Assembly (NCBI GenBank): GCA_004293445.1
Contig: RDYP01000003.1
Location: 310,001 to 374,000, forward strand
Length of the DNA: 64,000 nucleotides
Origin: Verrucomicrobiota bacterium
GTDB lineage: Bacteria; Verrucomicrobiota; Verrucomicrobiia; Verrucomicrobiales; Akkermansiaceae
Direction: 5' to 3'
Part shown: piece by piece, positions 304 to 37,707 of the stretch
Layout of the letters: each line of letters opens with the position of its first letter
Numbering within the stretch: the first letter of the stretch is position 1
Position numbers and translations under genes: made by a program
Notes under the pieces: model-generated
What the model saw: the letters and a program-made list of their open reading frames with translations, nothing else
The model's database searches: none
What the model was told of the DNA's origin: nothing

Positions 304-3300
304 GTGAAAACGCCTCGCCGTCTCCCGCTCATTCTGCCCTGCCTCGCCGGCTTGACCGTCCTTGCCCTTTTCATTTGGCAACCCGCCGTGGAACCGGTCG
401 ATGGTCCCGGAGAGGCTCAGCCCTCCACCGTCGCGCCGCCCACGGACGCTCCGTCCGCAGCCAACCGGCACCCGGCCCGCACAACAGGGATCGCCGCCGC
501 CCCGGCGTCCACGCTCGCCGCGATGGAGCCCGGTCGTCCCCCTCGCCAGGTCGAACTGTCACCAGACTTCCTCGATCGTATCGTCCGGGGTGACGCGGTG
601 ACCTTCGACCTGCCCGACGGCCGCCAGGTGGAATGCGAGGAAGCGCGGGTCGAACGGGACGAGAAAGGCGTGGTCTCCCTGACCGGGGAGTTCACCCGGC
701 CCGTGCCCGGAACCTTTTTCTTCCGCCGTCAGTATTTCCCCGGGGTGGCCGGCAAGATGGCTGGCAATGTGATCTTCAAGGGCGAGAAAACCGCGTGGAA
801 GATCCTGCCCGAAGGAAAGAACGGCGACCCCCTGCTCAAGGAAGTCCCGATCGGCGAGGTCATCTGCGTTGACTACACCCCGCCGCTCGAGATGCCGCAG
901 GACCACCCGTCCACCGTGGCGCTGCCGGAATACCAGGACGTCATCCCGCTCGAAAGCCTGCCCGGCGCGCCGGGCGCGATCTACCTCGACTTCGACGGAT
1001 CGAAGGGACCCCACGACACCTGGTCCTACAAGGGCGATGCCGCGCCGTCTGGCTTCAGCAATTCGACCATCCGCGACATCTGGATCCGCGTGGCGGAGGA
1101 CTTCCTGCCGTTCAATATCAACGTCACCACCGATGCGAAGGTCTATGAGAACGCCACCCGCGGCCGCCGCATCCGCTGCATCGTCACGCCCACCAACTGG
1201 TACAGCGCGGGCGGCGTTGCCTATGTCGGCTCCTACAACTGGGGCGGCGATCCGGTCTGCTGGGCATCCAATTACACCGGCGACAGCGCGGTGACCGTGA
1301 TCTCCCACGAGGTCGGACACACCCTCGGTCTCTACCACCACGGCTACGACACCAGCGAGTACTACTCCGGCCACGGCAGCGGGGCCACGGCTTGGGCACC
1401 GATCATGGGGACCGGCTATGGCAAAACCCTCAAGCACTGGTCGGACGGCAGCTACTACCTCGCCACCCGGAAGAGCCAGAAGGACCTCACGACCATCACG
1501 AATCAGAACGGCGTCGATTTCCGCCCGGACGACTGTGGCGACGCTCTCGCCGGCGCCCGCTACCTCTGGATCGGTCCGGGCAACACCGTCACCAACCAGC
1601 AGGGGATCATCGGAGCCCCGGGCGAAATCGACGCCTTCCGCTTCAAGACGACCGGCGGCGCGGTGAATCTAACAGCCAGTACCGCCACGACCGGCATCAA
1701 TCTCGACATCAAGGCGGACATCGTCGACGCCGCCACCAGCACGGTCGTCTTCACCAACGATTCCACCGCTTCGGCCAACGCCACGATCTCCACCAACCTC
1801 GCCGCCGGCGAGTATCTGCTGCGGATCACGGGAGCCACCGTCGGAACGCCCGCCACCTCCCGTGGCGGCTATTCGAACTACGGCTGCCTCGGTTCATACA
1901 AGATCGACGGCACCGTCGCCGGCGGCGAAACCCACCAGGCCTTCGCCATCGCGGAAAACAGCGCCAACGGCACCGTCATCGGCACCATCGCCCCGCGCAC
2001 GGTCGGCGGCAGTCCCCTGAGCTACACCATCGCCAGCGGCAACACCGGCAATATCCTCGCACTGAACCCGTCCACCGGCAGTCTCACCGTAGCGAACTCC
2101 GCCTCGCTGGATTTCGAAACCTTGTCGTCCCAATACGACGATCCGGCGGTGTTCGAGTTGTTCGTCACCGTCACCAATACCGGCACCTCCGCCACTGAAA
2201 CCGTGCGCGCCATCGTAACCGTGACCGACGTCAACGAGCCGCCGGTTCTCGCGGCCATCCCTACGGAAATCGCCGTTTACGAAGGCACCACACCTGGCGT
2301 CCGGGTGGTGGATCTCAGCGCCACCGATCCCGACCGCTTCGACGGCCCGGTGTATGAGATCGTTTCCGGCAACTCCGCCGGATACTTCGCCATCAACCCG
2401 CGCACCGGCTCGCTCACCGTGGTCAACGTGCCGCAGGTCGCCGCCAACACTCCGGTCACCCTGGTGCTCCGTGCCCGCGACCAGAAAACCCCCACGCAGT
2501 ACTCGGTCGACCGCACCCTCACGATCACCATCACGGACCTTCCGGGCACCGTCCCCGGCACGCCAGGCACCATCGTCCGCACCTTCTTCCGCAATATCGG
2601 CGGCTCGACGGTCGCGGATCTCACGGGAAACGCGAACTTCCCCAACAAGCCGGGTGAGGAAGTGGTTCTCACCTCCTTTGACGGCGGCGCCAACGCCGGC
2701 GACAACTACGGCAGCACCATCCGCGGCTACCTGATCCCGCCGGTCAGCGGCCAATACCATTTCTGGATCGCCGGCGACGACGCTTCCCAGCTCATCCTGG
2801 GGAGCGGCGCGTCGCAGGTCTCCACGCCGGTGATCGCTTCCCACCCGACCAACACCGGGCAATACGCTTGGGACGCCCAGGCATCGCAGGTCTCCGCGCC
2901 GGTCACTCTCACCGCCGGTCAGCCCTATTACATCGAGGCCCGCCACAAGGAGGCGGGCGGCGGCGACCACCTCGCGGTGGCCTGGTCCGGCCCCGGCATC
3001 ACCCGCCAGGTGATTCCCGGCCTTTACCTGGTGCCGTTCTATCAGAACTACGCGCCCACTCCGTCCGGCACCTTCACGATCATGGAAACCGCCCCCGCGG
3101 GCACCGTGGTCGGTACCGCCAGCGTGGCGGACGTGAACAAACAGGACTCGCACGAAAACTTCACCATCACCGCCGGCAACACCAACAACGTCTTCGCGAT
3201 CAACCCGACCTCCGGCCAGATCACCGTGGCCGCTGCCGGGCTGCTCAACGCGAACACCACGCCGTTCTACAACCTGACGGTCAGGACCACCGACGACGGC

Positions 3301-13133: not shown

Positions 13134-16100
13134 ATGTCCCAGCCTCTTCACGAAAAGCCTACCACTAGACGTTTCCAAGCGGTCTTGCTCGCGTGGCTTG
13201 CGTTGCTCCCTTGTCTTTGCTCGGGAGCTGGATTCGATCAGCAGTCCTACACGCCTTCCCACGACACCTTCGTCCAGCGCGGCGCGCCGACCGCCACCGC
13301 TGGCAGCGGCGACGAGTTTCTGGTGAAGCGCGACTCCGCCACGGTCTCCGGCGGCTCCGACCGACTCGGCTACCTGCGCTTCTCCACCGCCGCGCCTTAT
13401 CCCGTCGTCGATAGCGCCAGCCTCTTCCTCTCCATCAACAACTACCCCGGCGACGGCACCACGCCCTTCACCTTTGAAGTCTTCGGCTTGCCCGACGGCC
13501 ACCCGAACGAGTCCTTCAACGAGTCGCTCCTCACCTTCAACACCGCCAGCAACGCCACCACTGCGATGCCTGGCAGCCTGAACCCCGCCGGCCTCACTTC
13601 GCTGGGCACCTTCACGCCCGCCGTCGCCTCGGGAAGCACCCGCGTCGAGTTTACCAGTACCGCCTTGCGCGACTTCATCGCTGCCAGCGGAAACTCCGAG
13701 CTGACCTTTCTCGTCTTCCGCCAGACCGCGAACGCCGGCCTTCCCACCTACTTTGCCAGCGGCGAGGACGCCAGCTCCACCAGGCGCCCCACCTTGCTCA
13801 TCCGCACCAGCAGCGATTCGCTCGCCGTCGCCAACACGATCGCCAGTTCCACTCTAACAGGTTCCGCCGCGGCCAACGGCACCGACAGCGATTTCACCAC
13901 TCGCTGGATCGCCAACGCCGATACCTCCTCCACCAAATCCTGGATCACCCTCGACCTCGGCTCGCCCCAGACCGTCAACCGCCTTAATTTCATCGCCTAC
14001 CAGCACGGCCGATCGTTCAAGATCGAATCCTCCGACGACAACGCCAGCTGGAGCCTCATCACCACCAACTTCCGCAGCGGCGTCGGCACCGCGGTTAACC
14101 CGCTGCTCCAAGATACCAACCGCTATTTCCAGCCCCGCACCGCCCGCTACTTCCGCCTCAGCTCGCTCACCTCCACCACCGGCAACAGCCTCTCGTTGTG
14201 GGAGGTGAAGCTCTACAACGACCCCACCGCCGCCCCGGTCCTCGCCCGCCTCGATTCGCTGACCGCTTCGGTGAGCGCGCTCCCTAACAGCTCGAACGCG
14301 GAGCAACTCAAGCGCGTCGTGCTCGAACTCGCCCTCGAGCGAGCCCAGGCCTGCCTCAACATCGGCGACTTCCCCGCCGCCAACCTGCTGCTGGACGATG
14401 TGCAGAACAACCTCGCCACCGACTCCGCCACCATGGCCGCCGTCACCACCGGGGTCACCCAGGTCCGCGCCATCCGCCCGCTGATCGAGACGACTCCGGA
14501 AACCAATCCCTACCTCAAACGCATCAACGACGGCGCCGCGCTCTATCTAACAACGACCGACCTCCCCTGGGAAAAGAACACGCCCGAGCTCAACGTCTTC
14601 GCCGATTTCAACCTCGCCCGCAGCACCGCCGGCGACATGGACGCCCTGCTCTGGGTCTTCGCCCACCCGAACAGCGCCCTGCGCCACCACCCGGAAATTC
14701 TCCGCCGCCTGCTGCGCCGCACCTACGCTTACCTCGATGCCATCAACGTCCACGGCCCGCTCCTTCCCGCTGGCCAGCTCGCCAGTTTCTACGACGACTT
14801 CGCCAGCGCCCCGGCCTCCATCGTGTTTCGCGAGTTCCAGCTTCTTTATCCCGGCCTCATCCCCACGAACTCGAACACCGAGTGGGACAACGCCATGACC
14901 ACCGCCGCCAACAACCTCTGGGCGGCCTTCGGCAACCGCAACGCCTCCTGGGTCAACACCGATGTCGCCATTGCCGTGGAACTCCACAACCTCGGCATGA
15001 AAACCGGCCGCCAGGAGCTCGTCGACAAGGGCCGCTACTTCATCGACGACGTTCTAACAAGCGGCCGCATGTTCGCCGACGGTGCGGTCGGCTACATCGG
15101 CACCCAAAACGAATCCGGCGGCTACCAAGGTACTGTCGAATCCTACGTCAACCGCTACTACCAGATCACCGGCCGACCGCAGGCTCTGGAAATCCTGCAA
15201 AAGATGGAATGGTACGGCCCGATCAACGGCCGCATGATCGATTGGTGGACCTCGCCCTCGTGGAAGCACGCGTGGAATTTCATCAGCGGCTCCGGTCAAA
15301 CCGGGGAGTCGACCAACGGCAAGAATCCCTACACCCGCGCCACCCTCGATGCCGCGATCGCGGCCGCCGCGACTGCCACCAACTGGACCGGCAGCGTCTC
15401 ACAGGTCGGATGGTATGAAAGCGGCACCACCGCCCTCACGCGACCGGATACCTACACCGTCTTTGACCGCAACATCCAAGGCCCGCGTTCGTGGCAGGGC
15501 GGCCTTTGGAATACCACCGGCACCCTCCGCGCCATCAACGACAACGAGTCCGGCCACCACACGATCGTGGGCGCCCAGGTCATGGACCCGGATCCCAACT
15601 TCCGCGTCAATGCCTCGCTCATGGGCGTCTTCCCCCGCATCCGCACCGCCGCGGGCGGCTCGCGCGATACCGACGGCACCTTCGCCGAAGCCCGCCACGC
15701 TTGGCTCACCTCGAAACTAACAGGTGCCTCCACCGTCACCCCTGACTTCACCGCCATCGGTGCCTCGCACAAGATCCACGTCTTCGCCAGCTCCACCAAG
15801 GGTACCGAGCACGATTGGACCGCCCGCCAGATCTGGTTGAACCTGCCCGACCGCAGCATCGGCCTGCTCGATCTCTCCCCGAATGCGAACCTCACCGCCT
15901 ACGAAGTTCAGGGCGCGATCCGCCTCGGCTACGGCGGCACCGCTTACAGCTCCGCGAAAACCCTCGCCGCCACCGGCAACAACGCGTGGAGCTACGGCAA
16001 GCTTCGTATCAAACTCCACGACCACAACTACGCCGAAGTCGTCCCGGAGGAATACGAGTTCCGCGTCGCTAACGCCCCGATCACCGAGATCACCCTGCGC

Positions 16101-18077
16101 GATCAGGTCGGTGGGGCCTCTAACAACACGCTCAACACCTACAACGCCGGCACCCGCTGGAAATACCTCGCCGAAGTCCGGCCCGACACCACCACCGACG
16201 AAGTCACGGTCACCGAAGTCGCCGAATCCGGCGGCCTGATCGGTATCCACGTCGAGTATCTCTCTAACAGTAAGCGCTACCGCATTCTCTACAACCCCGG
16301 CACCGCCGCCGTAGCTCACAGCCCTTCGCTCAATTGGCCGGGCATGATCCGCCTCCACCGCAGCGGCCAGCATTTCCGGCCCGACTGGGTGCCCGATCCC
16401 ACCGGCACGCCCGCCCCGGAATTCCTCGCCCCGGGCCAATCGATCTCCATCGAGCCGAAAGCCCACATCGTGCTGGCACTCGATCCCTTTCCCACGCCCA
16501 CCCTCACCATCAGCAGTCCCGCCGAAGCGGCCACCCTTTCCGACCCCACCCTGAAGCTCCACGTCTCTGCCGCCATCGATACCCACGGCAGCCCCGGCAG
16601 CCCCGCCATTGCCTGGTCGCAAGTCTCCGGCCCCGGCACGGTGAGCTTCGATGACCCATCCTCGCCCGACACCCGCGCCACCTTCTCCGCCGTCGGCATC
16701 TATCAGATCCAATGCGCTGCCACCCTCAATGGCATCACCGGCAGCGCCACGCGCACGATTGCCGTCGATACCCCGGTCGAACTCAGCTTTCGCCAAGGCG
16801 TCGGCGCTTACTCGCAGGAAACCACCACCCTCCGCGCCGACAACCCCACTTGGAACGCGGGCGCGCGGAACCAATTTCTGGTCGGTCGCATCAATACGAA
16901 CAGCAGCGCCACCCGCGGACTGCTTTCCTTCGATCTAACAGGCATCCCGTCCGGCACCCTCATCGAGTCCGCGCAACTCGAACTCACCACCAGCAACGAA
17001 GCGGGCAGCGGCTCCGTGTCTCAACTCGAACTGCGCACGCTCACGACCGACTTCACCGAAGGCAGCGGCAGCGGCCTCTCGGCCACCCCCGCCGATCCCA
17101 ACACCAACTCCGGCGCGAATTGGCAGCGCCGCAGCGACGCCACTGCCAACCTCACTTGGACCAACCCCGGCGGATCCCTCGGGACCACCGTGTTGTCCAC
17201 CTTGCCCGGTTACAACGCCAGCACCGCTACCAGCTCTTCGAAGACCTTTCCGAGCAGCCCGGAATTCGTCGCCGCCACCCAGGCGGCTCTTGCCACGGGA
17301 CGCTTGAATCTCTCGGTCGTCTCGCCCCTGACCGAAGCCCTTGCCGCCGCGAACTTCACCCGCATCCACTCCGACGACGCGCTCACCGAAAGCCAGCGTC
17401 CGCAACTCCGCCTGTTCGCGGTCCTGAACCCGCTGCCCGTCATCACCACCGGAGTCGCGCCAAGTGCAGTCGCCGGTACAGCCGTTGCTCTCACCGGCAG
17501 CGCCAGCGGAGCCAGCTCCACCAGTTGGTCCCTCGTCTCCGGACCCGGCACGGCCAGCTTCATCGATTCTAACCATCCCACCCCCATCGTCACCTTCAGC
17601 CAGCCCGGCTTCTACAGGCTGCGCCTGCTTGCTTCGAATACGAGCGGCACGGTTTCCCGCACTCTCGACGTCGCCGTGTCTCACAACCCCGCCATCTTCG
17701 CCGACTGGCAGGCGCTCACTTGGCCCGACCAAAGCGACTCCGCCATCATCGGCCCCGACGCCGATCCCGATGGCGATGGACTGAGCAACTTCGCCGAGTG
17801 GGCACTCCATCTCGACGCCACCGCGCCCAGCGTCTATCAGCCCGGTTTCGTCAAGAACGGCGGCGTTCTCACCTATACCTACACCCGCCGCAAAACCGCT
17901 CCTGGCGAAGCCACCTTCACCGTCGAATGGTCCGACACCCTCGCACCGCCGTGGACACCCGCGATCTCCGATCCGCCCGTCTCTCTCGACGATGTCCGCG
18001 AATCCGTCCACACCCCCATCCCCGCCGGATCGAACGGCCGCCGCTTCGCCCGGCTCAAGATCACTCCGCGTCCATGA
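13134..18077 (+). CDS. Secreted multidomain putative polysaccharide lyase (divergent, PL8-like toroid): DNRLRE, F5/8-type C, lyase, DNRLRE, Ig-like, C-terminal module
   Basis: Signal peptide; DNRLRE-type TYTPSHDTFVQRG...GYLRFSTAA; discoidin-like RWIANADTSSTKSWITLDLGSPQTVNRL; lyase core DGAVGYIGTQNESGGYQG and YTVFDRNIQGPRSW shared with paralogs at 37708 and 40043. Confidence 0.75.
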   Translation: MSQPLHEKPTTRRFQAVLLAWLALLPCLCSGAGFDQQSYTPSHDTFVQRGAPTATAGSGDEFLVKRDSATVSGGSDRLGYLRFSTAAPYPVVDSASLFLSINNYPGDGTTPFTFEVFGLPDGHPNESFNESLLTFNTASNATTAMPGSLNPAGLTSLGTFTPAVASGSTRVEFTSTALRDFIAASGNSELTFLVFRQTANAGLPTYFASGEDASSTRRPTLLIRTSSDSLAVANTIASSTLTGSAAANGTDSDFTTRWIANADTSSTKSWITLDLGSPQTVNRLNFIAYQHGRSFKIESSDDNASWSLITTNFRSGVGTAVNPLLQDTNRYFQPRTARYFRLSSLTSTTGNSLSLWEVKLYNDPTAAPVLARLDSLTASVSALPNSSNAEQLKRVVLELALERAQACLNIGDFPAANLLLDDVQNNLATDSATMAAVTTGVTQVRAIRPLIETTPETNPYLKRINDGAALYLTTTDLPWEKNTPELNVFADFNLARSTAGDMDALLWVFAHPNSALRHHPEILRRLLRRTYAYLDAINVHGPLLPAGQLASFYDDFASAPASIVFREFQLLYPGLIPTNSNTEWDNAMTTAANNLWAAFGNRNASWVNTDVAIAVELHNLGMKTGRQELVDKGRYFIDDVLTSGRMFADGAVGYIGTQNESGGYQGTVESYVNRYYQITGRPQALEILQKMEWYGPINGRMIDWWTSPSWKHAWNFISGSGQTGESTNGKNPYTRATLDAAIAAAATATNWTGSVSQVGWYESGTTALTRPDTYTVFDRNIQGPRSWQGGLWNTTGTLRAINDNESGHHTIVGAQVMDPDPNFRVNASLMGVFPRIRTAAGGSRDTDGTFAEARHAWLTSKLTGASTVTPDFTAIGASHKIHVFASSTKGTEHDWTARQIWLNLPDRSIGLLDLSPNANLTAYEVQGAIRLGYGGTAYSSAKTLAATGNNAWSYGKLRIKLHDHNYAEVVPEEYEFRVANAPITEITLRDQVGGASNNTLNTYNAGTRWKYLAEVRPDTTTDEVTVTEVAESGGLIGIHVEYLSNSKRYRILYNPGTAAVAHSPSLNWPGMIRLHRSGQHFRPDWVPDPTGTPAPEFLAPGQSISIEPKAHIVLALDPFPTPTLTISSPAEAATLSDPTLKLHVSAAIDTHGSPGSPAIAWSQVSGPGTVSFDDPSSPDTRATFSAVGIYQIQCAATLNGITGSATRTIAVDTPVELSFRQGVGAYSQETTTLRADNPTWNAGARNQFLVGRINTNSSATRGLLSFDLTGIPSGTLIESAQLELTTSNEAGSGSVSQLELRTLTTDFTEGSGSGLSATPADPNTNSGANWQRRSDATANLTWTNPGGSLGTTVLSTLPGYNASTATSSSKTFPSSPEFVAATQAALATGRLNLSVVSPLTEALAAANFTRIHSDDALTESQRPQLRLFAVLNPLPVITTGVAPSAVAGTAVALTGSASGASSTSWSLVSGPGTASFIDSNHPTPIVTFSQPGFYRLRLLASNTSGTVSRTLDVAVSHNPAIFADWQALTWPDQSDSAIIGPDADPDGDGLSNFAEWALHLDATAPSVYQPGFVKNGGVLTYTYTRRKTAPGEATFTVEWSDTLAPPWTPAISDPPVSLDDVRESVHTPIPAGSNGRRFARLKITPRP

Positions 18078-21000
18078 GTCTGCGACGCGATCGCTTGCTT
18101 CCGATTGCGCGATAATGAAACTGCGTGAAATGTGAACGCCGGATGTTGTTCCACTCTGCCACCACCTTGCTTCCCATCGCCCTCGGTTTCGCCGTTGTGG
18201 CAATGACTTCGGCGAGGCTACCCGCGGCGACCCCCACCGGGGCCGGCTGGACCCTCGCATGGAACGACGAGTTCGAGGGCAGCACCATCGACACCGCCAA
18301 GTGGCGCCATTGGCTCCCCGGCGCCCGACGCGATGCGGTGAATTCCCCTAGCGCCGTTGCGGTCGCCGATGGTGCCCTTGCCATCTCCACTTACACCAGC
18401 GGAGGCACCCACTACACCGGGATGCTCTCCACGCAGGATACCTACCCCTACACCTACGGTTACATCGAGGCCCGCATCGATTACGACAGCTCGCCCGGCA
18501 TGTGGTCGGCCTTCTGGATGCAATCGCCCACGATGGGAAATCCCATTGGCTCGCCGAACAGCGCCGGCACCGAGATCGACATCTGCGAGCACCGCAAGGT
18601 CGACGGCAGCGGTACCAACCGCGACGGCAATGTCGGCGGTGTCATCCACTGGGACGGCTACGGAGCGGATCACAAGAGCCACGGCTACGACTCCGGAAAC
18701 CTCGGCCTCGGCACCGGCTACCACATCTACGGCATGGAGTGGACGCCCACCCAACAGAAATTCTACATCGACGGCGTCCTCCGCTGGACCATCAACAACG
18801 CGCCCAACACCCCCGTCTCCCAGCGCAGCGAATTCATCATCCTCAGCAGCGAGGTCGATGACACCAGCACCACCTGGGCGGGACCGATCCCCGCGGGCGG
18901 CTACGGTACGCTCGCGACGACGACTACGAAGATGAAGGTCGATTACGTCCGCGTTTATCGCCGGTCCGAGACCGTAGTGAACGGCGACTTTGAGGGAAAA
19001 ATCGGCCCTTTCAGCGCCAGCGGTCAAGCCACATGGTCGGCCACCGGTGGGCGCAACGATCCCGCCGCCGCGAAGATCGCTCCCACCTCCGGCGGATCAT
19101 CGGTCGAACAAAGCGTCCGCGGCCTGCTGCCGGACACCGCTTACCAGTTCAACGCTTGGGGCAATGCCGGGACCACCTCGCCCGGTCTTCTCATCGCCGC
19201 CAAAAACTACGGCGGCAGCCAAACCGGCCAAACCCTGAGCTCCGCCACCTACACCCAGGCCAGCGTTCCTTTCACCACCGGCTCTAACAACCGCAGCGCC
19301 ACGGTCCTCGCCCACTCCGCCAACATCGGCTCCACCGCTTACGTCGATGACTTCCAGCTCCGCCGCGCGGCCAGCGTGCCGAACGGTCACCTCGAGCACG
19401 ATGCTTCCCACGCTTGGACCAGCTCCTACGGCGGTGCGATCGTCTCGGGCGATTCCACCTACGACGGCGAATTTGCGTGGAAAATTCCCGCCAGTAGCTC
19501 CAGCGCGGGCGTCGAGCAGGATATCGTCGGCCTCACACCCTCAACCGCCTATCGCCTCAGCGGCTGGACCACCAACGGCAACACCAGCCTGAGCTTCGGC
19601 GTGAAAAACCACGGCGCGTCCCAAGTGACCAGCGCTGTATCTTCTAACATCTGGGCCCGCGCCACCGTCAATTTCACCACCGGCTCCGCCAGCACCACCG
19701 CCACCGTCTTCGCCTTCCGTCCCTCTAGCGCGCAGACCGCTTACGCCGATTCCTTCTTCCTCCACCAACCGCTCGCCGCGCCTTGGGCCAGCGCCGACCT
19801 CACGACCACCGGCCGCTCCGGCATCGCCGGCCGCCTCGGCGACCGCCTCGTCCTCCAGGCCGGCGGCAACAACCTCGGCGGCAGCAACGACGCCATCCAC
19901 TTCCTCCACCAGCCGCTCAATGGCGACGGGACCATTACCGCCCGCCTCGTCGGCGTGGACACGACCGCCTACCACGCCAAGGCCGGCCTGATGATCCGCG
20001 AATCGACCGCCCCCGGTGCCCGCAGCGCATCCGTCGTCTGGGGCCCAGTCAATCAGTTGGTCGAATTCAACCGCCGCACCACCGGCAATGCGAGCGCCAG
20101 CTCGACGCTCACCCCGCGCGACATTGTCGAGCCGCCTTGGCTCCGCCTCACCCGCCGTGGCAACACCTTCACCGCCTACCGCTCGCCCGACGGCCAGTCG
20201 TGGACCCGTGTTGGATCGCCGCAGACCATCGCCATGTCCGCCAACGCCCTGGTCGGCATCCCCGCCTGCGCCGGCGACACCACCCGCCTCACCGAGGTCG
20301 CCGTGGATGACGTGTCGATCACGGCACCGATCGCCGATGTCTCGATCACTTCGCCCGCCGATGGCAGCACGCTGTCCGGCACCGGCCAGGCGCTCCATCT
20401 CACTGCAACGGTCAGCTCGACGACGACTCCAACCCTTGCTTGGAGCATGGTCAGCGGCCCCGGCAGCGTGAGCTTCGTCGATCCCAACCTCGCCACTACC
20501 AGCGCCACCTTTTCGGCCACCGGCAGCTACGTGCTCCGTCTCACCGCTACCACTGCCGCCGGCAGCGGCAGCGCCGACCTCACCGTTCACGTCGCCTCCG
20601 CTCCCGTGCCCGATGCATCACTGGTCCTTCACCTGAAACTCGACGAGTCCTCCGGCACGATCGCCAGCGATAGTTCCGGCAGCGCCAACCACGGCACCGC
20701 CACCGGTGGCTTCGCTTGGCAACCTGCCAGCGGTGCGATCACTGGCGCGGCCGACTTCAACGGCACCGATTCCTACTTCGCCGTTCCCGACAGCGCTTCT
20801 CTCGACAACACCGCCGCCTTTACCCTCTCGTACTGGTTCCGCGCCGAAACCCTCGGCAACAACACCGGCCTCGTCGCCAAGCGCGTCGGTCCCAGCGACA
20901 ACAATTCCTACGGGTTCTTCCTCGGTCTCGATGGCAAGTTGTCCGTGGATGTGAATTCGTCCAACAACCGATTCACTAGCAACACGACCTTCAACAGCGG

Positions 21001-22520
21001 CAGATGGTACCACATCGCGCTGGTTTTCGATGGCAGCCTCGCAGAGGCCCAGCGCGCGAAACTCTACGTCAACGGTGCGCTCGATACCACCGCGGCGGAA
21101 ACCAGCAGCTCCGTTCCCAATCATGCCTCGCAGCTTTACGTTGGAGTGCTCGCCCCGGGCAGCGCGGTCTTCGATGGTCTGATCGACGAGGTCCGCTTCC
21201 ACCGGCGTGCCCTCTCCGGCACCGAGGTCGCTGCCCTGGAAAGCGCGACCGACAACTTCGCCCCGACCGTCGCCACCGGCCCCGCTCCCGCCGCGATTCC
21301 GGGCATCGCCGCGAACCTAACAGGATCAGCCGGGATTGATGCCGGACCTTCGCCCACAGTCGTTTGGAGCAAGGTCGGCGGTCCCGGCAATGCGATCTTC
21401 GCCAACCCTTCCTCCGCCAGCACCACCGTCACTTTCGACCAAGCCGGCACTTACCTTCTTCGTCTCACAGCAAGCAGCCCGGGCGCTCAAACTTCCGCCG
21501 ATCTCAGTGTCACCGCCGCTTACCCACCCCCGCTGCTGGCCATTGTCGACCCTCCGGCTCCCGTCGCGCTTGCCGATGCGGCCGATGCTCTCCGCCTGAT
21601 TGTCAGCACCGATGCCAATGGCGCACCCGGTAGCCCGACCATTGCTTGGAGTCAGTTCAGCGGCCCCGCTGCGGTGATCTTCGACGATCCCTCCGCGGCC
21701 GATACCCGTGCCCATTTTTCTGCACCCGGCAGTTATCTGCTTCGCTGCACCGCTACCGGCAGCGGCGGCAGCACCAGCGCGGATGTCTCCGTCACCATTG
21801 CCACCCCCGCCAGCCTCTCTCTCCGCCAAGGAGAAAACAGCTACAACCACGCCGCCACCTTTCTCCGTAGCGATGTCACGACCTGGAACTCCGGCGCGCG
21901 CGACCAGCTCGTCGTCGGCAAGTCGGCCAGCTCCTCGAACTTCTTCCGCAGCGTGCTTTCGTTCCCTCTAACAGGCGTCCCCGCCAATGCGACGCTCACC
22001 GCCGTCTCGCTCGACGTCTGGACCCATCCCACCCAAGCGGGTACCAGCAGCGTCGCCGCCCTCGAACTCCGCGCGGTCGCCGCCACCCCGGTCGAAGGCA
22101 GTGGCACCAGCAGCGACGCGAACAATATCAACGGCACCGGTACGGGTGCCACCTGGCTCAATCGCAGCGCCGCCACCGCGTGGACCAGCCCCGGCGGCGA
22201 CTTCGGCCCGACCGTTCTTTCGACGCTTCCCGGCTTCAACGCCGCCACGACTGCTGCTGCGAAAAACTTCCCGTCCTCCTCCGCCTTCCTCGCCACTACC
22301 CAAGCCGCCCTTGCCGCCGGTCAGCCGCTCAACTTGATGCTGATTTCTCCTCTAACAGAAAGCGGCCCCGTCGCCGCCTTCACCCGGCTTGCTTCGGACG
22401 ACCACCCGACCGTCGCCCAGCGCCCGCGCCTCAGTCTCATCTGGTCCGTCAATCCGGCCCCTGCCATCAGTTCCGGTCCCGCTCCGAACGCCATCACCGG
22501 CACGCCCGCCGCTCTAACAG
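13853..22520 (+). other. Cluster of TCTAACAG-like words inside two coding genes
   Basis: TCTAACA at 13853, 14546, 15053, 16119, 16263, 16934, 19283, 19643, 21967, 22351, 22513; near variants CCTAACAG 14283, ACTAACAG 15716, CCTAACAG 21316, TCTAACCA 17568. Confidence 0.7.
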
Positions 22521-23104
22521 GCAATGCCACCGGTGCCGATTCCACCACTTGGATCTTCGTTTCTGGCCCCGGCAGCGCCAGTTTCGCCTCTCCCGACAAC
22601 CCTGCCACCTCCGTCACCTTCAGTCAGGCCGGCAGCTATTTGCTCAGGCTGATCGCTTCCAATTCAAACGGCGAGGTGTCGCGGGATCTCTCGGTCGAGG
22701 TCAGGTCGGCGCTCGATCCTGCCAGCTTCGAAGACTGGCAAGAACTTACCTGGCAGGGGGTCGTCAGTCCGCAGATCATCGGCCCCGACGCCGATCCCGA
22801 TCGCGACGGTCTTACGAACCTCATCGAGTGGGCCCTGCACCTTGATGCTATGGTGCCTGGTTCCTTCGATCCCGATTTTGCGAAAAACGGAGCGCTCCTC
22901 GACTTTACCTACACCCGGCGCAAGATCGCCCCCGGCGAGGCGGAATTCCAGGTGGAATGGTCGGACAGCCTTAACAACGCATGGTCCAGCAGCGGGGTAG
23001 CTGAAACTCGGATCTCCCAGACCCCCGAGACCGAAACCATGGAGGCCACCATACCCGCAGGCCTCGGCAGGCGATTCGTTCGTCTCAATGTCCGGCGTCC
23101 CTGA
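18125..23104 (+). CDS. Secreted GH16-family glycoside hydrolase with CBM-like, LamG, DNRLRE, Ig-like domains and C-terminal module
   Basis: GH16 signature GTEIDICEH (ExDxxE) after WTLAWNDEFEGSTIDTAKW; LamG-like SLVLHLKLDESSGTIASDSSGSANHG; C-terminal half parallels the previous gene. Confidence 0.85.
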   Translation: MKCERRMLFHSATTLLPIALGFAVVAMTSARLPAATPTGAGWTLAWNDEFEGSTIDTAKWRHWLPGARRDAVNSPSAVAVADGALAISTYTSGGTHYTGMLSTQDTYPYTYGYIEARIDYDSSPGMWSAFWMQSPTMGNPIGSPNSAGTEIDICEHRKVDGSGTNRDGNVGGVIHWDGYGADHKSHGYDSGNLGLGTGYHIYGMEWTPTQQKFYIDGVLRWTINNAPNTPVSQRSEFIILSSEVDDTSTTWAGPIPAGGYGTLATTTTKMKVDYVRVYRRSETVVNGDFEGKIGPFSASGQATWSATGGRNDPAAAKIAPTSGGSSVEQSVRGLLPDTAYQFNAWGNAGTTSPGLLIAAKNYGGSQTGQTLSSATYTQASVPFTTGSNNRSATVLAHSANIGSTAYVDDFQLRRAASVPNGHLEHDASHAWTSSYGGAIVSGDSTYDGEFAWKIPASSSSAGVEQDIVGLTPSTAYRLSGWTTNGNTSLSFGVKNHGASQVTSAVSSNIWARATVNFTTGSASTTATVFAFRPSSAQTAYADSFFLHQPLAAPWASADLTTTGRSGIAGRLGDRLVLQAGGNNLGGSNDAIHFLHQPLNGDGTITARLVGVDTTAYHAKAGLMIRESTAPGARSASVVWGPVNQLVEFNRRTTGNASASSTLTPRDIVEPPWLRLTRRGNTFTAYRSPDGQSWTRVGSPQTIAMSANALVGIPACAGDTTRLTEVAVDDVSITAPIADVSITSPADGSTLSGTGQALHLTATVSSTTTPTLAWSMVSGPGSVSFVDPNLATTSATFSATGSYVLRLTATTAAGSGSADLTVHVASAPVPDASLVLHLKLDESSGTIASDSSGSANHGTATGGFAWQPASGAITGAADFNGTDSYFAVPDSASLDNTAAFTLSYWFRAETLGNNTGLVAKRVGPSDNNSYGFFLGLDGKLSVDVNSSNNRFTSNTTFNSGRWYHIALVFDGSLAEAQRAKLYVNGALDTTAAETSSSVPNHASQLYVGVLAPGSAVFDGLIDEVRFHRRALSGTEVAALESATDNFAPTVATGPAPAAIPGIAANLTGSAGIDAGPSPTVVWSKVGGPGNAIFANPSSASTTVTFDQAGTYLLRLTASSPGAQTSADLSVTAAYPPPLLAIVDPPAPVALADAADALRLIVSTDANGAPGSPTIAWSQFSGPAAVIFDDPSAADTRAHFSAPGSYLLRCTATGSGGSTSADVSVTIATPASLSLRQGENSYNHAATFLRSDVTTWNSGARDQLVVGKSASSSNFFRSVLSFPLTGVPANATLTAVSLDVWTHPTQAGTSSVAALELRAVAATPVEGSGTSSDANNINGTGTGATWLNRSAATAWTSPGGDFGPTVLSTLPGFNAATTAAAKNFPSSSAFLATTQAALAAGQPLNLMLISPLTESGPVAAFTRLASDDHPTVAQRPRLSLIWSVNPAPAISSGPAPNAITGTPAALTGNATGADSTTWIFVSGPGSASFASPDNPATSVTFSQAGSYLLRLIASNSNGEVSRDLSVEVRSALDPASFEDWQELTWQGVVSPQIIGPDADPDRDGLTNLIEWALHLDAMVPGSFDPDFAKNGALLDFTYTRRKIAPGEAEFQVEWSDSLNNAWSSSGVAETRISQTPETETMEATIPAGLGRRFVRLNVRRP

Positions 23105-25078: not shown

Positions 25079-27952
25079 ATGAAACCACACTGCTGGCTAT
25101 CCGTTCTTCTCACCCTCGGCGCTTGGTGCGCATGCACTCATGCCGCTGAAATCCAAGCTCTCGCCGAAACGTTCAAGTCCCCGCCCAAGGAAACCCATCC
25201 GGTCCTCTGGTGGCGTTTCATGGATGATTACGCCAGCCGCGAGGGCATGGTGGCCGACTTAGATGGGATGAAACACATCAGCCTCGGTGGCGCGGTGGTT
25301 TCCTACTGCTCCAGTAGCTCCGGCATGAGCAAACCCGTGCCCGGCGCGCCCTTTGTCCCGATGCTTTCGACGGCATGGTGGGAGAACATGGACTTCACGC
25401 TCAAGCAGGCCGCCGATCGCGATCTCGATCTTTGGTTCCAGCTCTGCCCGGGCTACGCGACCTCGGGCGGACCCTGGATCACTCCGGAGCTTTCGATGCA
25501 GAAACTTGTTTGGAGCCAGGTCTCATGCAGCGCCGAAAAACCATACGATAAGATCCTGCCAACGCCCAATGTGGATAAGAAATGGAACTACTACCGCGAT
25601 GTCGCGGTGCTCGCGTTTCCCAACGGCAAAGGGCCTGTGGATCTGAAAAAGATCATCGACATTACTTCTTCGATGGACGCTGCGGGCCGATTGCAGTGGA
25701 AGCCGACGACCGGGAAATGGATCATCGTTCGCCTCGGCCACACGACCACCGGCGTCCCGGTGCATCCGGTGACGGAAGCGGGATATGGGCTGGAATGCGA
25801 CAAACTCAGCAAGGAGGCCACGCGCCACCAGTTCAACAGCTACTTCAAAAAGATCGCCGACAAACGTCCCGCAGGTTCGAAATCCAAGGTCGAGTTGTTC
25901 TTCGACAGCTGGGAAGCTCAGAACCAGAACTGGACGCCGACGTTTCTAACAGAATTCAAAAAGCGCCGCGGCTACGATGCGCTCCCTTGGCTGCTGGTCG
26001 CCACGAAACGAATCGTCGCCAGCGAGGAGCTGAGCCGCCGATTCGACTACGATTGGAAAACCACCATCGAGGAGTTGATCAACGACAACCATTTCTCCGA
26101 ACTCGTGCGGCTGTCCCACGAAAGCGGCTGCCGCGAGTTGCGTGCGCAACCTTACAATGGCCCCGTCAATTTCATGACCGCCGGAGCGCTGTTCGATATC
26201 CCCGAAGCCGAATACTGGCTCAACAAACGCGAATACGGCTGGTGGAGCCTGCGCATGATCGCATCGGTCGCCCACATCCACGGGAAAAAACTCGCCGCCG
26301 CCGAGTCGCTTACGGCCATGCCCGCCAACCATCATATGGACGCGGACCCTTTCAGCATGAAGGCGCAGACGGATCTCGCCTTCACCATGGGCATCAACAG
26401 CATGGCCATCCACGCCTCCGGCCACAATCCATGGCCGAAACATAAGCCGGGCATCACCAGCGGGTTTTTCCCGCCGCTCGTCGGTGCTTGGCAGACTTGG
26501 AATGACCTGGCCGGCTCGTGGATCCACTATCTAAGCCGTTGCTGTTACCTGCTGCAACAAGGATCGCCCACTGCCGATGTGGTGAAACTCTTCCGCCCCA
26601 ACGAAAAGGGTTATCCCGTGATCCCCGGTCACGCCAGCGACCTGTGCAACGAGGAGTTGATCGTTTCCTCGATGACCTTCGACGGCAAGGCGCTGTGCCT
26701 GCCCAGCGGCATGCGCTATCGGATCCTGGAGCTCCCGGACACGACCAAGATCGTGAACGCCCAGATGTCGCCCTCGGGCATCGAAAAACAAACCGGTCGA
26801 AAGCCGATGCCCCAGAACATCTCGCTGCCGCTGCTGCGCAAAGTGCGCGAGCTGGTTCTCGCAGGGGCCACGGTGCTCGGTCCGCGCCCGGAAATCAGCG
26901 CCGGGCTGACCGGATATCCGCAGTCGGATCGGGAACTCCAAGCCATTGCCACCGAGTTGTGGGGGCCTGCGGGAAACACCACGGTGGATCGCAAGGTCGG
27001 CAAAGGCCGCGTTCTATCAGGAATCTCCATCACCGAGGCGCTCGCCCGCATCAACTTGCAACCGGATTTCAAAACCGTCGAAAAGCTCCCCAGCGACGAT
27101 GTGCCTTGGATCCATCGCAAGGTCGGCGCGGACGATTGGTATTTCGTTTCCAACCAGCGCAACAAGCCGCTCAAGGTCACGGCTTCGTTTCGCGTCAGCG
27201 GCAAAATTCCGGAACTCTGGCATGCCGATACCGGCACCACCGAACCCGCTCGCGCCTGGACTATCCGCGACGGACGCACCGAGGTGGAACTGGATTTCGC
27301 GCCCCGTGGTTCGGTCTTCGTGCGCTTCAGCCCGGGAAAAATTCCTTCTCTGCCGGTCAAAATTGCCCAGCCAAAAATCATCGAATCCACCATCGTGAAA
27401 GGTGACTGGAAAGTCCGTTTCTCGCCGGATATGGGCGCACCCGCCGAGGTGGAGTTTCCCAAGCTCATCTCGTGGACCGAGCACTCGAACCCGGAAATCC
27501 GCCACTACTCGGGCATCGCAACCTATCAGACTGAAATCAACATCCCTGCTTCCAGGGGAAGGATCGTCCTCGACCTCGGCGAAGTGAAAAACCTGGCCCG
27601 CGTCACGGTCAACGGCACCCGTTTTCCCGAGCTATGGAAGCCGCCCTTCACTTGCGACATCAGCTCCGCTGTCAAACCCGGCGCAAACCCACTCACCATC
27701 GAGGTCGCCAACCTCTGGGCCAACCGCCTGATCGGTGATGAACTCCAACCACCGGACGTCATCTGGGAAACCAAGGGCAAAAGCGGCGGCATCCGACCGC
27801 TCGCCACGCTGCCCGATTGGCTGCTCCAAGGAAAACCCCGCCCATCATCCGGCCGCCGTGCGTTCTCCACCTGGAATTACATCCAGCCCAAACAGAAGCT
27901 CCTGCCGTCGGGGCTGATCGGACCTGTAACAATCAGCATCCAGCGCCCGTGA
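25079..27952 (+). CDS. GH106-type alpha-L-rhamnosidase, secreted
   Basis: FKSPPKETHPVLWWRFMDDYASREGMVADLDGMKHISLGGAV N-terminus and C-terminal beta-sandwich LDLGEVKNLARVTVNGTRFPELWKPPF...IEVANLWANRLIGD are GH106-like. Confidence 0.82.
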   Translation: MKPHCWLSVLLTLGAWCACTHAAEIQALAETFKSPPKETHPVLWWRFMDDYASREGMVADLDGMKHISLGGAVVSYCSSSSGMSKPVPGAPFVPMLSTAWWENMDFTLKQAADRDLDLWFQLCPGYATSGGPWITPELSMQKLVWSQVSCSAEKPYDKILPTPNVDKKWNYYRDVAVLAFPNGKGPVDLKKIIDITSSMDAAGRLQWKPTTGKWIIVRLGHTTTGVPVHPVTEAGYGLECDKLSKEATRHQFNSYFKKIADKRPAGSKSKVELFFDSWEAQNQNWTPTFLTEFKKRRGYDALPWLLVATKRIVASEELSRRFDYDWKTTIEELINDNHFSELVRLSHESGCRELRAQPYNGPVNFMTAGALFDIPEAEYWLNKREYGWWSLRMIASVAHIHGKKLAAAESLTAMPANHHMDADPFSMKAQTDLAFTMGINSMAIHASGHNPWPKHKPGITSGFFPPLVGAWQTWNDLAGSWIHYLSRCCYLLQQGSPTADVVKLFRPNEKGYPVIPGHASDLCNEELIVSSMTFDGKALCLPSGMRYRILELPDTTKIVNAQMSPSGIEKQTGRKPMPQNISLPLLRKVRELVLAGATVLGPRPEISAGLTGYPQSDRELQAIATELWGPAGNTTVDRKVGKGRVLSGISITEALARINLQPDFKTVEKLPSDDVPWIHRKVGADDWYFVSNQRNKPLKVTASFRVSGKIPELWHADTGTTEPARAWTIRDGRTEVELDFAPRGSVFVRFSPGKIPSLPVKIAQPKIIESTIVKGDWKVRFSPDMGAPAEVEFPKLISWTEHSNPEIRHYSGIATYQTEINIPASRGRIVLDLGEVKNLARVTVNGTRFPELWKPPFTCDISSAVKPGANPLTIEVANLWANRLIGDELQPPDVIWETKGKSGGIRPLATLPDWLLQGKPRPSSGRRAFSTWNYIQPKQKLLPSGLIGPVTISIQRP

Positions 27953-30192: not shown

Positions 30193-30222
30193 TTGTCTTT
30201 GTTCACCTATTCATTTTGGCAT

Positions 30223-32136
30223 ATGAGATCCGATTTTATCCCGTCACTTAAGACTTCCCGCCGCGAGTTTTTGGTCATGACCGGGAGTGCCGTCGCCGCC
30301 TCTTCGCTGCCTGCCCGGTTGCATGGAGCCGAGGAGAGCCCGGGGATGGTTTTGCTTGAAGCCGAGCAGTTTGATGATTTCGGCGGCTGGGTGCTCGACC
30401 AGCAATCGATGGACCAGATGGGATCGCCCTACCTGCTGGCCCACGGCTTGGGAATCCCGGTCAAGGACGCCACCACAGCCGCAAACATTGCTTCCCCGGG
30501 AACTTATCGCGCATGGGTCCGCACACGCGATTGGGTGGCACCGTGGAAGGCACCGGGAGCACCCGGGAAATTCCAAGTGAAGGTCAACGGCACACCGCTG
30601 GAGACCACCTTTGGCACCACGGGAGCGCAGTGGCACTGGCAGGACGGCGGACTGGTTGAGCTTGGTGCCCGCATCCAAGTCGCACTGAATGATTTGACCG
30701 GATTCGAAGGCCGCTGCGACGCGGTTCTGTTCTGCAAGGACCCCGGTTTCGCGCCGCCCAACGAGCTCGCCGAGTTGACTCGGTTCCGCCGAAGCGTGCT
30801 GGGCCTCGGGATGGACCCGGAGCCGGGCGGGGACTTCGACCTGGTGGTGGCCGGGGGCGGCATCGCGGGCACCTGCGCGGCACTGAGCGCCGCGCGCAAC
30901 GGCTTGAAAGTGGCCCTCGTCCAGGATCGTCCCGTGCTCGGCGGCAACGGGTCTTCCGAAGTCCGGGTCTGGCCACAGGGCAAGGTCAACCAGCAGCCTT
31001 ACCCGCATCTGGGGGACATTGTGCGGGAAATCGTGCCGGAAAGAAAATCCAAGGACCCCACGCGAACCGGTGCCGCATTCGGCGACGAACTCAAGACGAA
31101 GGCGATTGCCGGCGAACCGCGGATTACCTTGTTCACCGATCAGCGGGTGTATGCCGTGGAGATGGCAGGCAAGACCATCCAAGCTGTGCTGGCCCAGCAC
31201 ACCCGCACCGGCCGTCGGATCCGACTCAAGGGGAAATTGTTTGCCGATTGCACCGGCGACGCCACCGTGGGTTATCTCGCGGGAGCGGATTACGAGCAGA
31301 CCCGCGAGGGCCATCAGGGGATGACGAACCTCTGGAGACTGGTTGACGCGGCCGACAAACAACAGGTGCTCCAATGCGAGTGCAAAGACAAGACGGCTTT
31401 GTCCCTGGCATACGAGTCCGGCAAGGTGGCGCAGCCCTTTCCGCGCTGCCCTTGGGCCCTTGACCTGAGCGACAAACCGTTCCCGGGCCGCAAGACTTAC
31501 AAAGGCCAGTGGGGAGGGGAATCACCGCTGAGCAATTTGGGGCGCTGGTTCTGGGAGAGCGGCTTTGACATGGACCCGATCGCCGATGTCGAGCGGATCC
31601 GGGACATGAATTTGCGGGCCATGTACGGCGCATGGGACGCGCTCAAGAATGTCGATCACCTCTATCCCAACCATCGCATCGGCTGGGCGGCCTACATTGC
31701 AGGGAAACGCGAATCGCGCCGGCTTCTGGGCGACGTGATTCTTTCGGCCGACGATTTCCGCAACGCGAAGTACTACCCCGACGGCTGTTTTCCGTGCACC
31801 TGGCATATCGATATCCATGGGCCGCATCCGAAATACAAATCGGGCCTGGAAAGCCACGAGTTCATTTCCGAGGCGACCGTCGGCAAGGACTTCTCCTACA
31901 AGGGGCCTTACTGGGCACCCTACCGCTGCCTGTATAGCCGCAATATCTCCAATTTGTTCATGGCAGGCCGCGACATCAGCGTGACGCACGACGGCTTGGG
32001 CCCGGTGCGTGTGATGAAGACCTGTGGAATCATGGGTGAGGTGGTCGGCAAGGCTGCTGCCATCTGCATGGAAGAGAATACCAATCCCCGCGGGGTTTAT
32101 GAACGCCATTGGGCGCGTCTCCAGGCCCGCTTCTAA
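30223..32136 (+). CDS. Tat-exported FAD-dependent oxidoreductase
   Basis: Twin-arginine signal TSRREFLVMTGSAVAASS; Rossmann FDLVVAGGGIAGTCAALSAARNG; YLAGADYE; stop TAA lies inside a TCTAACAG word. Start may alternatively be TTG 30193. Confidence 0.88.
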   Translation: MRSDFIPSLKTSRREFLVMTGSAVAASSLPARLHGAEESPGMVLLEAEQFDDFGGWVLDQQSMDQMGSPYLLAHGLGIPVKDATTAANIASPGTYRAWVRTRDWVAPWKAPGAPGKFQVKVNGTPLETTFGTTGAQWHWQDGGLVELGARIQVALNDLTGFEGRCDAVLFCKDPGFAPPNELAELTRFRRSVLGLGMDPEPGGDFDLVVAGGGIAGTCAALSAARNGLKVALVQDRPVLGGNGSSEVRVWPQGKVNQQPYPHLGDIVREIVPERKSKDPTRTGAAFGDELKTKAIAGEPRITLFTDQRVYAVEMAGKTIQAVLAQHTRTGRRIRLKGKLFADCTGDATVGYLAGADYEQTREGHQGMTNLWRLVDAADKQQVLQCECKDKTALSLAYESGKVAQPFPRCPWALDLSDKPFPGRKTYKGQWGGESPLSNLGRWFWESGFDMDPIADVERIRDMNLRAMYGAWDALKNVDHLYPNHRIGWAAYIAGKRESRRLLGDVILSADDFRNAKYYPDGCFPCTWHIDIHGPHPKYKSGLESHEFISEATVGKDFSYKGPYWAPYRCLYSRNISNLFMAGRDISVTHDGLGPVRVMKTCGIMGEVVGKAAAICMEENTNPRGVYERHWARLQARF

Positions 32137-32288
32137 CAGATGCCGTCGGCCAAAACCGATCATCTACAACTCGCAACCTCCACCGATTTCGAAATATGGA
32201 AACGCCACAAAAGCACCAAGTTTCCACCCCGCGCCCAGCACGGCAGGCGCTTTCTGGCATCCGAATCCGCGGTCGCGTGAAGCATCCA

Positions 32289-36142: not shown

Positions 36143-37696
36143 ATGTCTGATTCATCCACTCTGTTCGCCATCTTGTTCTCCGGCGCCTTCCTCGGCATCG
36201 CCCCGCTCCATGCGGAGGCCTTGCCGTCGATCTATCAGCCCGCAAACTCCCCGCAGCCGTTGGCTCCGCTGCCCACTCCCTCCCAGTTCCGCTGGCACCA
36301 GCAGGAGTTGCAGATCTTCATCCACTTCGGCGTCAACACATTCACCGGATTGGGCTGGGGCGATGGCACGGAAAACCCGGACCTGTTTGCGCCAACCGAT
36401 CTCGACTGCGAGCAATGGGCACGCGTCGCGAAGGAGAACGGCTTCACCCGCATGACCCTCAGCGCCAAGCATCACGACGGCTTCTGCCTCTGGCCCAGCT
36501 AATACACGGACCACTGCGTGAAATCCAGCAAGTGGCGCGATGGCAAGGGCGACGTGGTCGGTGAATTCGTCAAAGCCTGCCGGAAATACGGCCTCGGAGC
36601 CGGCATCTATCTCTCGCCCTGGGACCGCCACGACAAACGCTACGGCACTCCCGCTTACAACGATTACTACATCAGCCAGGTGAACGAACTCTTTGACCGC
36701 TATGGCAGGATCGACTCGTTCTGGCTGGATCTCGCCTTCAAGGATGAAGGTTACACCATGCCCTTCGAGTGGCAGCGGATCTATGATGCGATGTACCGCC
36801 GCAATCCCGCCGTCACCATCGAGATGGGCGGCCCGGACGTCGGATGGATCGGCAACGAGGCGGGCTCCGGTTTGGAAACCTGCTGGAATTTCCACGAACT
36901 CCCCTACGCCACGACCTCCGGCGCGCTGCCCGGAAGAATGCCATTCGCTTACACCGGCGGCATCCAGCCGGAAGCGGAAAACGTCGGCAAGCACCCGAAC
37001 TACAAGGCCATCCCCGCCCTGCGTTATTGCCCGCGTCTCGGCGATGCATCGGTCCGCCGCGGCTGGTTCTGGAACCCCGACCAAAGCCGCGGCCCGGAGT
37101 GGTGGAAACAGATCTACTTCAATTGCGTCGGACGCGGCAGCAGCATGATGTATGGTTTCGCCCCGGACCGCCGCGGACATTTCCCCGAAGAGGATGTCGC
37201 CGGAGCCGTGGCGCTCAGGAAGATGCTCGATGAAATCCAGCAGACGGATTTCGCCGCAGGCAAACCCATCACCGCCGATACCACCTGGAAATCCATCGCC
37301 GGTCACGAAGCCGCAAAATCCGTCGATGGCGACCCGCTCAGCTATTGGGCGGCCGAGGAATCCTCAACCACGGCCGCGCTGGAAGTGGACCTCGGAAAGC
37401 CCTGCCAATTCAATGTCGTCAACCTGCAGGAACCGGTCTTCATGGGCCAGCGCGTGAAAAAATACCGCGTCGAATACCTCGACGGCGAGACATGGAAACC
37501 CTTCTCCGAAGGCACCACCATCGGCCACCGCAAGCTCGACCGCCGCGCCGCCGTCACCGCCAGCAAGGTGCGCCTCATCATCGATGACGCCCGAGCCTAT
37601 CCGCTCATCTCGACCTTCAGCCTCCACCGCACATCCTTCATCGTCAAAGAGGCTGAGGAGAAGAAAACCGGCACCCGCGAGGAAAAGGCGATCTAA
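36143..37696 (+). pseudogene. GH29-type alpha-L-fucosidase with C-terminal discoidin-like domain, interrupted by one in-frame TAA at 36500-36502
   Basis: Both ORFs (36143..36502 and 36518..37696) are in the same frame; conceptual read-through ...[56 protein letters not shown] is continuous with the fucosidase fold. Confidence 0.85.
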
Positions 37697-37707
37697 CATT
37701 CATTCGC

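Follow-up and report, generated by a model that had tools for sequence, protein, structure and literature searches.

YCTAACAR, an over-represented DNA word of many Akkermansiaceae, as a possible self-signal of the DNA-uptake type

The short word CTAACA recurs in two genes for large secreted proteins, where it is read in different frames. Which constraint keeps a word fixed while the reading frame changes, and how far does it extend beyond these genes?

Copies of the word in the window

The window comprises the whole 64-kb stretch of DNA that was analysed. The core CTAACA occurs 20 times, always on the + strand, and 14 of the 20 copies lie inside 13853-22520. A first-pass annotation had reported about 15 recurrences in 9 kb. 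Its coordinates were all correct, and the reading of the word as CTA ACA, TCT AAC or CCT AAC, with C-TAA-CA at the two stop codons at 32132 and 37692, was borne out. Its further copies were found as described, with TCTAACAG at 1668 and 25945, TCTAACAT at 51587 and GCTAACAG at 47032. Genes were predicted with a simple codon-usage caller. The copies and the two central genes are:

1668..1675, + strand, TCTAACAG, CTA ACA (Leu-Thr), within the giant autotransporter-repeat gene 304-9537
13134..18077, + strand, secreted 1647-aa gene, F5/8 C, DNRLRE and PKD, eight core words
13853..13860, + strand, TCTAACAG, CTA ACA, conserved in the G007 ortholog
14283..14290, + strand, CCTAACAG, CCT AAC (Pro-Asn), conserved in the G007 ortholog
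14546..14553, + strand, TCTAACAA, CTA ACA, conserved in the G007 ortholog
15053..15060, + strand, TCTAACAA, CTA ACA, CTG ACA in the G007 ortholog
15716..15723, + strand, ACTAACAG, CTA ACA, conserved in the G007 ortholog
16119..16126, + strand, TCTAACAA, TCT AAC (Ser-Asn), TCG AAC in the G007 ortholog
16263..16270, + strand, TCTAACAG, TCT AAC, TCC AAC in the G007 ortholog
16934..16941, + strand, TCTAACAG, CTA ACA, conserved in the G007 ortholog
18125..23104, + strand, secreted 1659-aa gene, GH16, laminin-G and PKD, six core words
19283..19290, + strand, TCTAACAA, TCT AAC
19643..19650, + strand, TCTAACAT, TCT AAC
21316..21323, + strand, CCTAACAG, CTA ACA
21967..21974, + strand, TCTAACAG, CTA ACA
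22351..22358, + strand, TCTAACAG, CTA ACA
22513..22520, + strand, TCTAACAG, CTA ACA
25945..25952, + strand, TCTAACAG, CTA ACA, within the GH106 rhamnosidase gene
32132..32139, + strand, TCTAACAG across the TAA stop of gene 30193-32136
37692..37699, + strand, TCTAACAT across the TAA stop of ORF 36518-37696
47032..47039, + strand, GCTAACAG, CTA ACA
51587..51594, + strand, TCTAACAT, TCT AAC

The product of gene 13134-18077 has an N-terminal stretch resembling an alginate lyase chain. This gene places all five of its CTA codons and five of its seven ACA codons inside the word. At paralogous sites CTCACCGGC at 17490 stands against CTAACAGGC at 22514, and the earlier reading of a synonymous choice was right.

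The nine copies of TCTAACAG in the window compare with a mean of 0.24 and a maximum of 2 in dinucleotide shuffles. In 600 within-gene synonymous codon shuffles the mean was 0.07 (maximum 2) for TCTAACAG, and TCTAACA, present 15 times, reached a mean of 0.70 (maximum 4). Preserving the flanking codon bases as well (600 shuffles) raised these means to 0.14 and 0.88, respectively. TCTAACA and CTAACAG were the highest-ranking 7-mers of the window genes against the plain codon shuffle. Codon-shuffle controls were required, because maximum-order Markov scoring masks a word whose own sub-words carry the signal.

Abundance and consensus across Akkermansiaceae

The host genome (G000; 3.35 Mb, 49 contigs) lies near Luteolibacter/Haloferula in Akkermansiaceae according to its UvrA relatives. 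It contains 112 copies of TCTAACAG and 65 of the reversed word. The 112 copies are split 54/58 between the strands; the one-sidedness noted at first thus holds for the window, from which CTGTTAGA is absent, and not for the word as such. Nor is the word restricted to the lyase and GH16 genes. It is a genomic word across much of the family. Word-rich relatives carry TCTAACAG well above control (G006, 714/184; G007, 331/64; G008, 630/172; G029, 416/113), and word-poor relatives carry it below control (G001, 4/27; G013, 11/80; G019, 6/58). The line between word-rich and word-poor was drawn by the authors from the word's ratio to its reversed form, a control that covers base composition alone.

The consensus is a sharp, non-palindromic 8-bp word, YCTAACAR, with about 14 bits of information (Y at position 1, the core CTAACA, R at position 8). 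A is preferred to T at position 5; TCTATCAG is enriched too, more weakly. The bases flanking the octamer carry little signal. Relatives with one mismatch are enriched 1.3-2.5-fold, and those with two mismatches show no enrichment. There are apparent dialects: G048 and G067 prefer TCTAACAA/CCTAACAA, i.e. endings in ...AACAA. Spacing between copies is near random (CV 0.94). Close pairs occur at or below chance, very few of them are inverted, and no excess of inverted pairs was found; terminator hairpins were rejected on this ground.

Counts of YCTAACAR against control were 1489/659 in Luteolibacter pohnpeiensis, 1554/813 in Roseibacillus persicicus and 1532/702 in Haloferula sp. BvORR071. The poor species H. 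luteola and R. ishigakijimensis gave 101/502 and 152/537, respectively. The extreme is the 3.0-Mb MAG G097, with 3322 copies against 394 of the control, or one per 0.9 kb. The proposed check against codon-context shuffles showed an excess over expectation, with the word top-ranked in several genomes, among them those of distant species. It ranks first among 6-, 7- and 8-mers in G006, G008 and R. persicicus (8-mer: 41 vs 1.1, 31 vs 1.1 and 29 vs 0.7, respectively), first among 8-mers only in G075 (21 vs 1.1), and is also top-ranked in G000.

Many Akkermansiaceae accumulate the word, namely Luteolibacter-, Haloferula- and Roseibacillus-like species and not Akkermansia. Nearly all genomes outside the family were poor in it in a class-wide sample; four were elevated, three of them in a single genus of family f4 and the fourth in family f14. 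Within Akkermansiaceae, genus g3 was low throughout 18 sampled genomes, and 26 of the 45 species of the Luteolibacter-like clade were word-rich. Abundance differs strongly between sister species, and on a uvrA tree the word-rich label requires about 17 changes. This patchy presence corresponds to repeated loss, or to gain and loss. No alternative dominant word stood out in samples of the word-poor G013 and G016.

Frame, orientation and retention at silent sites

The word occupies every stop-free frame, and the TAA-containing frame is barred inside genes. At gene ends, 30 of 273 TAA stops lie within C-TAA-CA across seven word-rich genomes, compared with 0 of 14 across two word-poor genomes. Per 10 kb, G006 carries 3.3 copies outside genes and 2.8 inside, and G008 carries 3.0 and 2.8, respectively; in neither genome did density depend on gene length. 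The majority of their genic copies are antisense, read as CTG TTA GA (Leu-Leu-Asp/Glu). Corrected for peptide content, enrichment in sense and antisense orientation was 22x/27x in G006, 16x/21x in G008 and 29x/44x in G000. Both orientations are enriched, mostly 10-40x, and antisense at least equals sense in every genome tested. Since the word stays constant while the reading frame shifts, the constraint acts on nucleic acid, a part of the earlier claim that is strongly supported. The choice between DNA and RNA had been left open. DNA is preferred because extragenic density is equal and antisense enrichment at least equal. Selection or drive thus works on the word at the DNA level and not through protein or mRNA.

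The one-sided window has a simple source: giant secreted proteins offer Leu-Thr and Ser-Asn but few Leu-Leu-Asp/Glu. Both in G000 and in a small G007 sample, giant secreted genes contain the word at several times the density of ordinary genes. The excess is greater than peptide content predicts, and the copies in the giant genes of G000 are in sense orientation. The density ratio in G000 is inflated because the stretches were picked around clusters; the whole-genome list nonetheless confirms the clustering. The giant genes may have been imported from word-rich donors, or the word may have decayed in the rest of the genome once the drive was lost.

The word is maintained at silent sites between word-rich species. 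Comparison with related genomes, proposed along with the original observation, bore this out. The 80%-identical G007 ortholog of gene 13134-18077 conserves five of the eight words. In the same comparison CTA was kept at four of five sites, and GTA, TCA, CCA and GCA together at one of eight. The ortholog comparison drew on eight small loci from a protein search. The uvrA sample comprised 71 species, with the word-poor comparison as matched null. Among word-rich pairs of 70-80% identity, CTA/TTA was kept in 242 of 703 comparisons in the word vs 480 of 5035 outside (34% vs 10%). No in-word excess was found towards word-poor species (11/193 vs 71/1190). The p-values of the uvrA comparison are not to be taken literally, because species pairs are non-independent. 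Base-call error, once a concern, is refuted, since an independent genome conserves the word and sequenced isolates contain it in high numbers.

Candidate functions of the word

A protein or other factor in Akkermansiaceae cells may recognise YCTAACAR on DNA, which would lead to its accumulation across the genome and its retention at silent sites. The recognising step would most likely be DNA uptake in natural transformation, for which a minor pilin of the type IV pilus, or some other receptor for DNA, is the candidate. Fragments bearing the word would be preferentially taken up and recombined, so that the word would spread and mark the DNA of kin. Where the receptor changed or was lost, the word would no longer be maintained and would decay. 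By analogy with known uptake sequences, YCTAACAR is tentatively read as working like a self-signal of the DNA-uptake type, at a probability of roughly 0.45, and is not filed as a DUS. It is rather probable that the word belongs to the broader class of hyperabundant self-DNA words, being either the first signal of the DUS/USS kind outside Neisseriaceae and Pasteurellaceae or a genome word of undescribed function. To our knowledge, no transformation uptake signal of this kind is known outside these two families. A search of an open literature library yielded nothing on uptake sequences in Verrucomicrobia.

As expected of an uptake sequence, the word is among the most over-represented in both coding and non-coding DNA. 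Uptake sequences are non-palindromic, lie within and between ORFs without orientation bias and lack strong replication polarity (PMC1939737). Neisseria DUS number about 1,900 copies in the 2.2-2.3 Mb of meningococcus and gonococcus, DUS dialects exist, and some Neisseriaceae lack the repeat (PMC3630211). Like the DUS of Neisseriaceae and the USS of Pasteurellaceae, YCTAACAR is hyperabundant, non-palindromic, independent of orientation and both genic and intergenic; it has dialects and relatives without the word, and its maximum of near one per kb is similar to the published Neisseria density. The comparison, made by sequence, also revealed differences, since YCTAACAR has 8 bp instead of 9-12, belongs to another phylum and lacks an arrangement in inverted pairs. 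Such pairs are common in all Neisseriaceae genomes with DUS (PMC3630211). Inverted pairs at terminators, a trait of Neisseriaceae DUS (about 10% of DUES inverted repeats), were not in excess here. The brevity of the motif also speaks against a DUS, as does the modest enrichment of its one-mismatch relatives, which vanishes at two mismatches. ComEC and PilM were present in every genome tested, which is compatible with competence and no proof of it. The two genes do not discriminate, because word-poor species have both.

A rather unlikely alternative is an epigenetic or structural role, in which the word would serve chromosome organisation or self-marking as the target of a methyltransferase acting on DNA, of a nucleoid protein or of a segregation protein. 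The sharp, DNA-level, evenly spread motif would fit such a target, and its complement TGTTAG is shaped like a BREX-type site. BREX-type sites are non-palindromic, 6 bp long and have adenine at the fifth position. A BREX site was rejected, as PglZ is missing from most word-rich genomes. Methylation sites are, moreover, not usually over-represented, the word shows no KOPS-like polarity, and the literature search yielded no paper describing it as a bacterial motif. The cyanobacterial HIP1 (GCGATCGC) is likewise a clade-limited, hyperabundant octamer in genic and intergenic DNA; it has been lost in some lineages and its function is debated. Unlike YCTAACAR, for which no methylase is known, HIP1 is a palindrome that includes the site of a methyltransferase.

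A Chi-like hotspot, at which AddAB (or RecBCD) would read the word and switch from degradation to recombination, is judged unlikely. Octamer length and genome-wide over-representation are shared with Chi, and adjacent PDDEXK_1 genes of AddAB size occur in most genomes tested. AddAB is, however, equally present in word-poor species, including sisters that lack the word, and one word family occurs with both AddAB and RecBCD, the word-rich G048 (same genome as G124) having RecC instead. RecC was found in only two of the tested genomes, G048 and the word-poor G030; nearly all family members lack it, and a RecBCD-Chi was rejected. Chi is over-represented in the core genome. The word does occur in uvrA of word-rich species; in G000 it is densest in giant accessory-type genes, the opposite of Chi's bias.

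KOPS are strongly strand-polarised towards the terminus. YCTAACAR resembles such FtsK-orienting words as a non-palindromic octamer across the chromosome but is not strand-polarised. Published Chi motifs show leading-strand polarity (PMC8022716). On fragments with clear GC skew, 88 copies of the word were leading vs 116 lagging (p 0.06). The single contig of G009 shows a weak lean, with 60 of the first 100 copies on the minus strand; this is lagging if the origin is near base 1, as was assumed, and gives about 58% combined. Antisense CTG TTA GA in leading-strand genes may cause the lean. The strand-biased Chi/KOPS role suggested at first is not upheld, given the lack of leading-strand polarity and the presence of AddAB-like genes irrespective of word abundance.

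It is very doubtful that the word is a functionless product of mutation, such as deamination of a methylated precursor in a certain context, or of biased repair. Mutation would affect all frames and both strands and might vary by species. The likely precursors TCTGACAG and TCCAACAG show no depletion, however, and deamination was rejected. The motif shows the kind of degeneracy seen in binding sites (Y and R at its ends, A over T at position 5), and retention is preferential between word-rich species, with no such preference towards word-poor ones. Scarcely plausible is an mRNA element of giant transcripts (processing, boxA-like antitermination or RNase site; a processing or binding role had been suggested), which the dense giant genes of G000 and G007 and their sense copies in G000 would suit, but which fails on antisense enrichment no lower than sense, on the mostly antisense genic copies, equal extragenic density and indifference to gene length of G006 and G008, and on a window sense bias that follows protein composition.

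Actively accumulated words are rare, the classic cases being DUS, USS, Chi and HIP1. Verrucomicrobiota now supply a further one. No earlier description of YCTAACAR as a bacterial motif was found in the open library. Word-rich and word-poor sister isolates exist, e.g. Roseibacillus persicicus and R. ishigakijimensis. The recognising protein should therefore be findable by comparison, and it becomes directly testable whether kin-biased uptake has evolved once more. The word also affects analyses of codon usage and gene transfer in these polysaccharide degraders.

Genes with and without the word

Giant secreted genes of 9-11 kb differ in their content of CTAACA, the core of the word YCTAACAR:

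L036:8753-19999, giant secreted gene
L042:7177-17088, giant secreted gene
Window 304-9537, giant secreted gene

In sense orientation, the sampled stretches L036 and L042 carry 15 and 12 cores in these genes, respectively, a load far above that of the remainder of the same genome. The giant gene of the window contains one core. Two neighbouring prepilin-like genes have one TCTAACAG each; one of them partially matches Verru_Chthon cassette C.

L044:18850-20000, prepilin-like gene pair

The word is mostly missing from a polysaccharide-degradation cluster in the window.

Window 23495-60620, cluster with two alpha-L-fucosidases, a GH106 rhamnosidase, a FAD oxidoreductase, a weak alginate-lyase match and a PATR autotransporter-type gene

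A long UvrA frame

The UvrA frame in L035 has about twice the usual length, and long uvrA frames recur throughout the Akkermansiaceae.

L035:10290-16178, minus strand, UvrA reading frame (1962 aa)

Variant word and avoided palindromes

In coding samples of four genomes (G006, G008, G065, G067), the main word is accompanied by a roughly threefold enrichment of a variant form, TCTATCAG or YCTATCA. Certain palindromes are strongly avoided in sampled stretches (L053-L062, L073-L082, L108-L127) of the word-rich relatives G006 and G008. For example, CTCGAG is avoided in both, and G008 contains 81 GGCGCC (366 expected) and 8 CAGCTG (118 expected). This avoidance likely represents restriction-site avoidance.
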